This document shows positions 1,878 through 9,663 of a stretch of 64,000 nucleotides of DNA, one piece after another; position 1 is the first letter of the stretch; each line of letters starts with the position of its first letter. The position numbers and the translations under genes are program-made. The notes under the pieces were generated by a model. The model was given only the letters and a program-made list of their open reading frames with translations. It searched no databases and was not told the DNA's origin. The DNA is taken from NCBI RefSeq assembly GCF_949628265.1, contig NC_088790.1:4220545-4284544 (forward strand), given 5' to 3'. The stretch comes from Cloeon dipterum. Its lineage: Eukaryota; Arthropoda; Insecta; Ephemeroptera; Baetidae.

Positions 1878-1920
1878 GGCGATGCACGTCGTAGGTCAGC
1901 GGGCTGAGAAACGAATGAGG

Positions 1921-1928
1921 TTACGCTG
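1921..1928. repeat. Left target-site duplication of the 7.55-kb hAT insertion
   Basis: TTACGCTG directly precedes the TIR beginning at 1929 and is repeated exactly at 9479-9486. The uninterrupted paralogous promoter carries this 8-mer once, as CAGCGTAA at 12448-12455. Confidence 0.95.
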
Positions 1929-2721
1929 CAGGGATGGGCAAAAAGTACCGGTACTTTTTAGGTACCGGTAAAAGTACCCGGTTCTACCCGGTACTACCGG
2001 TACCAAAAAGGTGGTACCGGTACTCGAGTACTTTGCTCCAAAACTGAAGTACCGGGTACTCGGTACTCATATTTTTAAAAATTCCGTATTTTCTACTTTC
2101 TTGCAAAACTCAGATTTATTATAATTAAAATAACACGGAAAGACTTGTTTTTGGCCAAAATCGCTTAGATTTGTTTTTTGTCGATTTTTCGTTACTAACG
2201 AAACCCAAATATTGGGAGACGAAGGGGCCTAAATCGGTCGCCGAAAGTCGAACACGCCCCCCATTTATGAATCACGGCATAAACGGCGCGTCCCCTATGT
2301 GAGGCGAGTGCAACAGAGGAGAGAAGTGTTGTGTACCTGGTTTCGGCGACTTGTGCACCTGTACCTGAACGAATTGATTGTCACTTGTCAACACTTCCAA
2401 GTACAGAACCTGGATTTATTTTTTAATATATATTATCAAAGATTATACTATATATGGTGGTTTGATTATCTTTTTTAATAGGAAAAGCTTTTTAATTTAT
2501 TTTATAAAAAATATTTTCTGCGGAAATATCCACTTGGTGTTCCCCAACTTGCACGGCGTTTCATAATCGTTTTGAATTCCAGTGAAAGACAAATTTACGT
2601 TATTAATTTAGTAAAATCTGCATAAATGTGTTGATGAAGGTATAAAAAAACTTATTTTATTTGCTAAGGTCATTTTAGTACACTAAATAAAATATTTTTT
2701 GAGTTAAATATACACTCTTAC

Positions 2722-4312
2722 TAGAGGTCTGAGAGTCTGAGCGAGCGCGCCGAGCCGCGCCGCCTTTTTTACATAAATTTTATAGCCAGCCGCAGCCGCC
2801 AGTTTCTGCGAGCCGCGCCAGCCAGCTGGGTGCTTTAAAAACTCAAATTGCTCAAATAATGCCGCTGTGAAGGTGTCCATTGTACCGATTACTTTGCAGA
2901 AAATTTCATTACGATGGATATTTTCAAAAACTACCATACTTTAAAGTCGAAAAATTAGGAAATGTTCAAATTTCGGTATTTTTGCAACTCGAAATCTCAG
3001 GCTCTATAACCACTATAATTGCAAAATATAGCCAATTTTGAACTCGTCTCGACCTCCCCTAACCAGCTGAAGAGGTGTTTACCCTCCACCCCTAAATTTT
3101 CTTTACATAAACTCCCTTGAAAAATTAAAACATTGTAGTGGATTTTAATACTAATTTGACTATTGCTTTAAAAAAATTTGTTTTTGGGACGAGGTATAAT
3201 GCTAACATAGAAGTGTTTTTAGGATAAAATATTTTTGAGCCCACAGAGGAAGCATGATATAATTTTACTATCAAAATTGTAGCAATGGGGGTTGAAAGGG
3301 GATTTGGTTAAGCACCCCCTAAACACTTAAGTTGCTTAGTGGTGATCAGACGAGTCCAACGGTGGTTATTTTTGCAATTCTAATGGTTAGAACCCGATAT
3401 TCGGAGTTAAAAAAATAACGAAAATTAAACGATTCCTATACTTTTCGTTTTTTTTTTTCTTGGAACCTCTAAATCTCGGGTTCTAAGCCACAATAACAAA
3501 AACTACCCAATTTTGGACTCGTCTCAACCTTCTCTGAGTAGCTGAAGGGTTTAGGGGTGTTTGCACTCCACCCCAAAGTTGACATATTACAGTTTACAGT
3601 GAACAGTCAGCCGCGCCAGGAAACGATCGTAGCTTATTATCAAAATTTTAGCGTTGGGGATGAAAGGGGATGGGAGTGAACCCTTCAGCTGCTCAGAAGA
3701 GGTCAGAGTCTAACAGTTGATGGTTTTTGCAATTCTGACAATTAGAACCTGAGATTTAGGTACAAAAAAAATTCGAAAATTTAGTTTTTTAAATTTTTGC
3801 ATTGAAATTTCTTGAAATCTAATCTAATTCAATTCAATTTATTTACTTTATAATAAAACCATACTCTAAAATTATCAGCCTGCTTTTTTGTTTCGGCGAG
3901 AAATGTTTTTATTGATTTAAATTGATAAAGAAAAAACGAAAATTTTTGGTTTTTTGAAATCCCCTCCGGTTCTTTGCCAGTTAAAATATTTCTGGTTCCA
4001 TGTAAGAAACCGATAAAGGACCGGATTCCGGTTTCCTGTCTTGAGACAAGCTCTTTCTTCTGATAGGAAAAGTACAAATAAGTTAATTAATTTGTCAAAC
4101 CAAGTTACTACCATCTTAAAAATAATTTTGAGCAAAATTTGTTCGAAAAAAATTCAATTCAGAAACGTGATTTGTGAGTGAATTGAGCCGCGAGCCGCGC
4201 CTTGAGCCAGCAGCCGCCTATATTAGGCGAGCCGCCGCAGCCGCGAGATTTAGGCGGCTATGCCAGTTAAGCCAGCAGCCGACAAAAATTGGGCGGCTCA
4301 TGCAGAACTCTA
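2722..4312. mobile_element. Nested hAT-like element, about 1.6 kb
   Basis: The left end reads TAGAGGTCTG; the right end, reverse-complemented, reads TAGAGTTCTG, so 9 of 10 bases match. Flanking octamers are ACTCTTAC (2714-2721) and CCTCTTAC (4313-4320), a 7-of-8 match consistent with an aged 8-bp target duplication. Both ends carry GC-rich gagccgcg and gccagcagccg runs. The middle contains two small foldbacks, with arms at about 2990-3110/3280-3400 and 3465-3585/3650-3750. No coding capacity is seen. The hAT assignment rests on TSD length and terminus, so it is moderate. Confidence 0.65.
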
Positions 4313-4467
4313 CCTCTTACATATTTTCGGCGTTAAAAAATATCAATATCACTCTCCTGGTCACCCTATGCGAGGTGTGTCTGTTTTCTAGTATGGAAAA
4401 CTTATCAACTTAACACTGCTCTTGAAAATACTACTTTTCTAAATTTTGAACACTTTTCAATCCTGGG

Positions 4468-4956
4468 TAGAGGTCTGAGCCACCTAAATTTTGTCGGCTG
4501 CTGGCTAAACTGGCTTAGCTGCCTAAATCTCGCGACTGCGGCGGCTCGCCTAAAATAGGCGGCTGCTGGCTCGCGGCGCGGCGCGGCTCGCGGCGCGGCG
4601 CGGCTCGCGGCGCGGCTCGAGTTTCTCAAATAAATTACGTTCCAGAATTGATATTTTTTGTAAAAAATTGTCCCAAAATTATTTTTAAGATGGTAATAAC
4701 TAGGTTTCACGAATCAATTGTCTTGTTTGTACTTTTCCTATCAGTCAAAAAGAGCATATTTCAAGACAGGATTTTATAATTATTTTTCAAGAAATTCCCA
4801 CAAGAAAACAACATTTTTTAATTTTTGTTTATTTGCACCCCCCAATCTCGGGTTCTAACCATCAGAATTGCATAAACTTCCTATCGATATACTCGTCTCG
4901 ACCTACACTAACCAACCAAAGTGTTTAGGGGTGCTTACCCCCATCCCATTTCAATC
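4468..4956. repeat. Inverted partial copy of the right end of the 2722-4312 element
   Basis: Starting TAGAGGTCTGAG at 4468, the sequence follows the reverse complement of 4312 back to about 3640. Matching blocks include the gccgctgctggc-type GC run, accatcttaaaaataatttt and the gataggaaaagtacaaa block. It stops matching at about 4957, where the large foldback begins. The pair makes an inverted repeat of about 280-bp near arms around a spacer of roughly 155 bp. GCGGC-type tandem repeats occupy 4565-4618. Confidence 0.65.
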
Positions 4957-4957
4957 C

Positions 4958-8250: not shown

Positions 8251-8400
8251 AGAGGGGAACCGGGATGGATTTTTTATCTCGTCCCTGTCCCGTCCCGAAA
8301 AAAATCCCGTCCCTGTCCCATTTTTGTTTTCCGGGTTCGTCCCTTTCCCTGTCAGCTCTTAACCTTGTCCCTGTTTAGTCCCCCCTACACCCCTTACCAG
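8251..8400. repeat. GTCCC-rich terminal-type repeat
   Basis: Begins agaggggaaccggg and continues as imperfect runs of GTCCCTGTCCC. A related terminus in the opposite orientation lies at about 11490-11544, reading agaggggaccaggg on the minus strand with a cgtccctg run. These look like ends of another DNA-transposon family with a YAGAGGGG start. The two ends do not belong to one insertion, because one lies inside and one outside the large hAT element. Confidence 0.45.
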
Positions 8401-8564
8401 ATTCGTAATTTTTCAAATTTATACTTAACTTTTGAAATTAGAAATTAGCAATAATTTGTGTCATTAACTTAACAATTTTTTGTGAATTGCTAACCTCGCA
8501 AGAGTGCTCATTTTTAAAAATAGGTCAGTGGAGAGAGTGAGTTTTTAATATTTTATTGCTTCCT

Positions 8565-9215
8565 CAGGGGTTCGCAAAAACCCGCATTTTTCCGGGATAA
8601 CCCACTGCATTGAAAAAACTGTTTTTTAGTGGTTTTCCTGCATTTTTCGAAACACATGCATTTTTATGGAAGATAAAAATTCTCATGATGGATGACCAAA
8701 AAAAGGGGTTTTACAAAACCAGTATAAAAGCAACTATGGTTCAGGGTTCACCAATTTTGCAATGCGCAAAAATGCACCACTGTATTTATTGCGCAGTAAC
8801 TAGTTTTTTCGAATTTAACACCAAAAAGATCACATTTTCAAAATTATAAACATTCAAAAATAAAATTTTGAGTTTTTTTAGTAATAATTTATATATAAGG
8901 AATCTTCATTTTTTTACTTATTTTCGAAAATTTTTAATCATAAATGATTAACTCTGCTAATCTATCTAATTTCCATTTTGGAACTAAAAGAAAAAATATG
9001 CACCTCCACAGACTTAAATATTCATAATTAAATATATTATTTATGTTTTGGGTAATCCGGAAAAAATTATAAAATACGCGAAGTTGCGGGAAAAACACGC
9101 AGTTTTTTTGCGATGTAGTGGGTTTTCTTAGGTTTCGTAATAACCGTGCATTTTCCTGCAAAAAAAAACTATATTTGCAGGCTTTTTTCCTCAATTTTGC
9201 GTATTTGATGGTTCA
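8565..9215. repeat. Dispersed repeat family N, copy 1
   Basis: Direct repeat of about 10779-11420. The shared core includes atgcatttttatggaagat, catgatggatgaccaaaaaa and a run through caattttgcaatgcgc. A related fragment in the opposite sense is at about 48330-48430. There is no coding content; it is probably the interior of a non-autonomous DNA element. Confidence 0.6.
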
Positions 9216-9478
9216 CGTTCACAACACCTCACTCCTCTGTCGCACTCGTCTCACAAAGGGGGCGTGTCTTACTTTCGGTGGCCAAAAAAAACAACGGTAA
9301 CCGCTATTGGACGCTGAATTCGCTGTTCGCTCGCTCGCTGAAGTTTTTTTACTAAATACCGGTACCGAGTACCCGGTACTTCTGGTACCGGTACTTTTCT
9401 TGACGGGTACTCGAGTACTTTTTCTTTTGGTACCGGTACTGTCAGTACCGGTACTTTGAAAAGAACCGCCCATCCCTG

Positions 9479-9486
9479 TTACGCTG
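9479..9486. repeat. Right target-site duplication of the 7.55-kb hAT insertion
   Basis: TTACGCTG immediately follows the terminal GCCCATCCCTG, an exact copy of 1921-1928. Beyond it the native histone promoter resumes. Confidence 0.95.
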
Positions 9487-9663
9487 TAAAACCCCGCGTA
9501 TATATGTGAGAAAAGCAGAGTGCGCAGCGAGCCAATAGCAGCGTCGCTTGCCCTCTGATTGGCGCATGCGTTTCGGCTCGCGCTCCCTCTCCAACGTATA
9601 TAAGCAAGCTCTGCCGTTTTCGCCGCATTCGTCTGATATCCTCGCACATCACCGAAACTCATC
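9487..9663 (+). promoter_or_regulatory. H2A promoter remaining after the insertion, with stranded H2B TATA
   Basis: Matches the intact promoter at 12270-12447 base for base by eye. For H2A it holds CCAAT at 9532-9536, a reverse CCAAT (ATTGG) at 9558-9562 and TATATAA at 9597-9603. The start site is expected near 9628. The TATATAT at 9499-9505 belongs to the divergent H2B gene, which is now 7.6 kb away on the other side of the transposon. Confidence 0.85.

Follow-up and report, generated by a model that had tools for sequence, protein, structure and literature searches.

What happens to a histone gene when a transposable element enters the divergent promoter that it shares with a neighbour, and damages that promoter on one side only? 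The question is raised by a 64,000-bp stretch of the mayfly Cloeon dipterum (C5:4220545-4284544, from contig NC_088790.1 of a 190-Mb genome in 10 contigs; hereafter the window, to which positions refer unless a contig is named). Here a 7.55-kb element with hAT-like ends lies between the TATA box and the initiator of the histone gene H2B1. An earlier note, made from this DNA, had described the insertion and left three options for H2B1: that the insertion is recent, that the gene is repaired by conversion from its partner copy, H2B2, or that the element now supplies a promoter.

An insertion between the H2B1 TATA box and initiator

The element is a real and clean insertion at H2B1. The 8-bp target site duplication (TSD) TTACGCTG and the perfect 11-bp terminal inverted repeat (TIR) CAGGGATGGGC were both found at the ends that the earlier note had given, and the uninterrupted site that it had placed at 12448-12455 is present in the partner gene pair one base away from there (Table 1); its other coordinates that we checked hold. 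Taken alone, the 8-mer TTACGCTG is unremarkable, occurring 4 times in the window versus 1.3 expected, and it counts as a TSD because it adjoins both ends of the unit and occurs in a single copy at the matching place of the partner arm. The TIR CAGGGATGGGC, expected 0.01 times in the window, has a third copy there, at 15591. When the two flanks are joined with one TSD copy dropped, they match the partner arm across the insertion point without a single difference in 489 + 622 bp. Assembly of identical histone arms is difficult, and the element could in principle have been misjoined into the locus; such an artefact is extremely unlikely, since a misjoin makes no TSD, and the same 8 bp stand at both junctions and once in the partner arm.

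Members of the hAT superfamily (Ac, hobo and Hermes) have 8-bp TSDs and short TIRs. The present element resembles them in both respects: its TIRs begin with CAG and match at 11 of 11 positions, and their start, CAGGGATG, is one that we take to resemble that of Ac. It is unlike them in its interior, which is a mosaic of repeats, and a search for a transposase found none: no Pfam match of any kind exceeded the cut-off in the 10 of its 28 open reading frame (ORF) pieces that were scanned (stop to stop, at least 55 aa; the best match, to SKICH, has an E value of 0.011, below the cut-off). hAT dimerisation domains exceed the cut-off at 13 places elsewhere in the genome, candidates for the source of an enzyme that could have acted on the element in trans. 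The hAT identity proposed earlier fits the TIR and the TSD, from which the label is taken, and we therefore write 'hAT-type'.

At the intact gene H2B2 the box TATATAC stands at -30 of the initiator TCATTCG (predicted +1 at 12459), with ATTGG at -62 and CCAAT at -88; start sites, here as at H2B1 and elsewhere, are predicted rather than mapped. At H2B1 the end of the element stands at -13, between TATA box and predicted start, and TATATAC, which begins at 9504 in the H2B direction, now lies at -7,588 instead of -30, counted from the predicted +1 at 1916. The TATATAT reported at 9499-9505 is present, and the separation of H2B1 from its TATA box is as the earlier note described it. The layout of a replication-type core promoter, a TATA box about 30 nt before the initiator, is thus missing at H2B1. 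On the other side of the shared promoter H2A1 retains its TATA box, both CCAAT boxes and its initiator, and H2B1 itself retains initiator, 5' untranslated region (UTR), coding DNA and stem-loop, both as had been claimed.

Judged by these features, H2B1 most likely has little or no activity in S phase. Its continued use, either from a promoter supplied by the element or by firing from the initiator alone, would be helped by the intact initiator, 5' UTR, coding region and stem-loop, and histone locus factors nearby could recruit polymerase. However, the element has no TATA-like box at -30 of H2B1. The highest-scoring candidate in the interval from -45 to -18, TAAAAAG at -44, reaches about half the value of the partner box (4.2 versus 8.8); ATTGG was not found in the 300 bp upstream, where the sole CCAAT lies at -299. 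In the other H2B promoters of the genome, by eye, one of the TATA-like boxes TAAATA, TAAAAG and TATAAG stands some 30 nt upstream of a TCATTCG or TCAGT initiator. We consider continued use of H2B1 very unlikely. The orphaned TATA box now points into the right end of the element, and a useful read-through mRNA from it is unlikely because the strand read from this box holds 93 ATGs, with an AATAAA 688 bp in.

Table 1 Features of the insertion, the split promoter and the two gene pairs in the window
Feature	Position	Strand	Remarks
hAT-type composite element	1929-9478	.	7,550 bp; perfect 11-bp TIR pair, 8-bp TSD, subterminal inverted repeats
TSD, left copy TTACGCTG	1921-1928	+	
TSD, right copy TTACGCTG	9479-9486	+	
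Left TIR CAGGGATGGGC	1929-1939	+	
Right TIR CAGGGATGGGC	9468-9478	-	
Uninterrupted target site, partner arm	12447-12454	-	
H2B1 initiator TCATTCG	1912-1918	-	Predicted +1 at 1916; 39-nt 5' UTR (1878-1916) retained
Orphaned H2B1 TATA box	9498-9505	-	
Shared-promoter boxes	9532-9562	.	Left on the H2A side: CCAAT 9532-9536, ATTGG 9558-9562
H2A1 TATA box	9597-9603	+	By eye; initiator GCATTCG 9625-9631
H2B1 coding region	1503-1877	-	Cut off from TATA box; 124 aa, 0 DNA differences from H2B2
H2B1 histone 3' stem-loop	1432-1477	-	Rfam RF00032, 38.1 bits; fold -11.4 kcal/mol
H2A1 coding region	9664-10038	+	Promoter intact
H2A2, partner arm	11895-12269	-	
H2B2, intact partner gene	12498-12872	+	
Left-flank patches matching 13211-13492 inverted	410-687	+	Four collinear patches, 79-88%
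Subterminal inverted repeats of element	2046-2081 with 9347-9382; 2289-2339 with 9214-9264		
Old repeat copy in element	2735-4300	+	Long relatives 72-80%; few 65-113 bp stretches 89-93%
2.3-kb foldback repeat in element	4964-7269	.	Many genome copies; long matches up to 94%
Old repeat copy in element	7327-8246	+	Four relatives 74-75% over the same 920 bp; partial ones 72-80%
Old repeat copy in element	8248-8837	+	Long relatives 69-77%; shorter up to 86% over 194 bp

Probable gene conversion and the other H2B genes

H2B1 has an intronless coding region, a conserved protein and a 3' stem-loop, as replication-dependent histone genes do, and belongs to one of two divergent H2A-H2B pairs that are arranged as mirror images (H2B1/H2A1 and H2A2/H2B2). 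Its coding DNA is unchanged against the intact copy, as the earlier note reported, with 0 differences from H2B2 in 375 bp including the stop codon, and the whole core of the pair is identical between the arms over 1,111 bp. The arms first differ 18 bp past the H2B stem-loop (1439 and 1433, opposite 12936 and 12942 in the partner arm) and 25 bp past the H2A stem-loop, and their alignment ends within about 40 bp beyond these first differences. A recent duplication of the core piece alone would leave the same picture, but farther out the left flank matches the partner flank in patches (Table 1), and bases 380-1430 gave no genome match besides that flank. Because the diverged flank patches match only the partner flank, the duplication would be older and its core homogenised, and the two gene pairs look like the arms of an old inverted duplication. 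A near-identical core between diverged flanks of the same duplication is the pattern of gene conversion, which is the natural reading of the identity between the arms.

A second mirror-image H2A-H2B pair lies at about C5:19.80 Mb (L009 at C5:19800784 and L008 at C5:19806295). Its arms show no mismatch in 13 successive 100-column windows spanning both genes, 83% identity over 1,074 bp beyond H2B and no alignment beyond H2A. Among eight H2B coding regions compared, zero differences are found only within the two mirror-image pairs, and the others differ at 11-43 of 372 bp. With conversion between the pairs well supported, the unchanged coding DNA of H2B1 is a poor guide to when the element arrived. 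Sequence differences immediately beyond the stem-loops, which had been proposed as a marker for assigning transcripts to H2B1 or H2B2, would fail on mature mRNA: they lie beyond the expected processing site, so the two mature mRNAs would be identical.

A six-frame search of the assembly gave at least 10 H2B matches (8 full length and protein-identical, 2 partial) and at least 16 H2A matches (8 full length and identical), all of these counts being lower bounds. Besides H2B1, at least seven complete genes encode the same H2B protein, which the earlier note had missed. With eight full-length identical genes, the loss of one H2B promoter would affect at most 1 of 8, and could be tolerated for that reason. 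On the same contig, C5:2551723-2607298 (L015-L020) holds six copies of a histone promoter fragment, some about 8,055 bp apart, and H2A C-terminal fragments (about 32 aa) lie about 1.6 kb from three of these; the six loci themselves yielded no core histone.

Next along in the window is a divergent H3-H4 pair (13859-14803). H3 was called by Pfam; its neighbour, whose Pfam core-histone score is below the cut-off, we take to be H4 from its sequence. Histone stem-loop motifs beside H3 and H4 (13819 and 14836) were found by pattern; the four Rfam matches that reach the gathering score do not include them. Exons of an MCM-family helicase (Pfam, two pieces) adjoin the histone genes at 16119-19647.

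Composition and age of the element

The element reads as a composite, with a near-consensus right end and a mosaic of old repeats inside, a structure that the earlier note did not recognise. The subterminal inverted repeats are common to both ends, which argues that the ends belong together. Inside, the arms of the foldback, 755 nt long, are 94% complementary. Searches with the inner repeats scored 40 of 1,398 candidates for 2735-4300, 40 of 2,500 for the foldback and 40 of 759 for 7327-8246, and nearer relatives are possible. No second copy of the whole composite was found among the best 40 of 2,500 candidates scored, and the element is the sole match listed in which these ends and these inner repeats occur together. 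Exact CAGGGATGGGC was listed at 42 genome sites, versus 4 for a reversed-pattern control, and only at the element do two of the 42 follow each other as + then - within 20 kb.

Other places were considered as possible relatives. Two loci with the TIR plus AAA (L001 and L002) showed no similarity to the element above the threshold applied. L061 (C4:21397700-21404800) was rejected as a full-length relative because its structure differs: it is a 3,216-bp inverted repeat with arms 100% identical, contains sequence about 82% similar to stretches of the element's left side, and carries an Aladin-like propeller fragment (Pfam below the cut-off; PDB matches to Aladin). Past the H4 gene, at 15591-15775, lies a small palindromic element of the same TIR family with one end worn.

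Compared with its relatives, the right end of the element has changed little: over about 172 bp, 2 substitutions (about 1%) and a single 1-base deletion are private to it, and none of these falls in the first 116. The comparison comprised eight rows, six related genome copies and the two halves of the small element at 15591; L060, a 60-bp left-end match, gave no right-end alignment and was dropped from this polarity test. Had the foldback inside the element come after the landing, and were its private branch its true age, the probability of 2 or fewer private substitutions in 172 bp would be 0.07 at 3.4% and 0.02 at 4.3%, and that of 0 changes in 116 bp 0.02 and 0.007, respectively. The near-consensus right end and the only exact inverted TIR pair listed favour a recent landing, without proving it.

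Several points weigh against a recent landing. The right-end test is short, a single stretch of C1 supplies five of its six genome copies, its count excludes five columns beyond the inner border of the shared sequence, and no close relatives were found for testing the left end. The private branch of the foldback is 3.4% for the right arm (second longest of 18 rows) and 5.2% for the left arm (longest of 20). In these trees the window copy was joined by 17 and 19 of 21 candidate loci, those spanning over 90% of the arm; L032-L037 did not enter, since five of them duplicate places already included and L037 is the window. The other inner repeats mostly stand at 69-80% from their nearest long relatives. 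If these repeats arrived after the landing, their ages would make the insertion old. In addition, an age of about 1.2% per lineage would already require conversion since the insertion, because the absence of any difference at 495 sites (fourfold plus non-coding) would then have P ~1e-5; many of these sites are constrained, however, and the lower age limit is near zero.

The insertion would accordingly be old if the inner repeats came after it and conversion from the partner cleaned both halves of the pair without removing the element. The foldback branches, among the longest private ones sampled, and the distances of the other inner repeats are consistent with this, and conversion appears to be active both at this locus and in the second pair; without it, 0 differences at 134 fourfold sites at 3.4% per lineage would have P ~0.0001. 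Against an old insertion stand the near-consensus right end, with the probabilities given above, and the perfect TIRs and TSDs, which are weak on their own. We regard an old insertion as possible but rather unlikely. Private branches are upper limits of age only, and dating the insertion by its inner repeats, which is at odds with the near-consensus right end, was rejected as decisive. Because the branches are upper limits, we take the mosaic to be old material carried between younger ends, and the landing to be recent.

The three options of the earlier note are not exclusive: conversion is well supported and recency is favoured, and nothing in the sequence of the element speaks for a promoter. 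That account was right on the insertion, its position and its one-sided effect on H2B. In the explanation that we hold to be probable, though by no means assured, the two H2A-H2B pairs would descend from an old inverted duplication, with conversion keeping the gene cores of its arms identical. An enzyme encoded elsewhere (acting in trans) would have inserted the 7.55-kb composite once the cores had last been homogenised, which makes a recent date probable. The element landed in the H2B1 core promoter, between TATA box and initiator. H2B1 lost its TATA box and both CCAAT boxes, and most likely its expression; H2A1 lost nothing. With at least seven further genes for an identical H2B protein, the loss would be tolerated.

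Known parallels and meaning

Transposon insertions at Hsp70 reportedly disrupt promoter function, and Hsp70 copies are said to be homogenised by gene conversion. The closest known case, and a close parallel by analogy, appears to be that of Drosophila Hsp70, whose promoters carry natural transposon insertions (Haney and Feder 2009, PMC2793543). As far as the extracts of these sources go, Hsp70 is typically in inverted orientation in Diptera (PMC3071340), fly Hsp70 combines inverted copies, gene conversion and natural promoter insertions (PMC2793543, PMC3071340, PMC3355041), and across 12 fly genomes the insertions cluster away from the start site, lying near it only in natural D. melanogaster populations (PMC2793543). 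Both cases concern multicopy, rapidly induced genes with inverted copies, conversion and transposons in the proximal promoter. The present one differs in that the gene is a replication-type histone gene with a divergent shared promoter, and a 7.5-kb composite splits TATA box from initiator.

The D. melanogaster histone array also has transposon insertions inside it, which serve as landmarks, and undergoes concerted evolution; unlike the present locus it consists of repeats of about 5 kb and not of mirror-image pairs, and no split core promoter is described in the extract of that source (PMC12400953). The Tm1 histone-hairpin elements of root-knot nematodes, according to an extract of the report on them, carry a histone hairpin (PMC3169594). 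They share with the present element foldback-type inverted repeats tied to histone sequence, whereas ours interrupts a histone gene and shows no histone hairpin. Among the open-licence papers that our searches listed, judged by title and abstract opening, we found no report of a hAT insertion splitting a histone core promoter. The H2B1 insertion is a new case of an already known kind.

A more far-reaching version, which we think quite unlikely, is that a promoterless histone gene has been kept letter-perfect over the long term purely by conversion from its neighbour, its halves being copied separately around the 7.5-kb obstacle, and that the orphaned TATA box may drive an S-phase transcript into the element towards the foldback. 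If this were true, the transcript could feed small-RNA silencing of the foldback repeat family.

The locus offers a natural test of a shared divergent histone promoter, in which TATA box and initiator are separated on one side only and an identical intact control pair lies about 11 kb away. It would also be a place where conversion hides insertion damage, and it serves as a warning that, in a converted gene family, intact coding DNA proves neither that a copy is used nor that an insertion is new.

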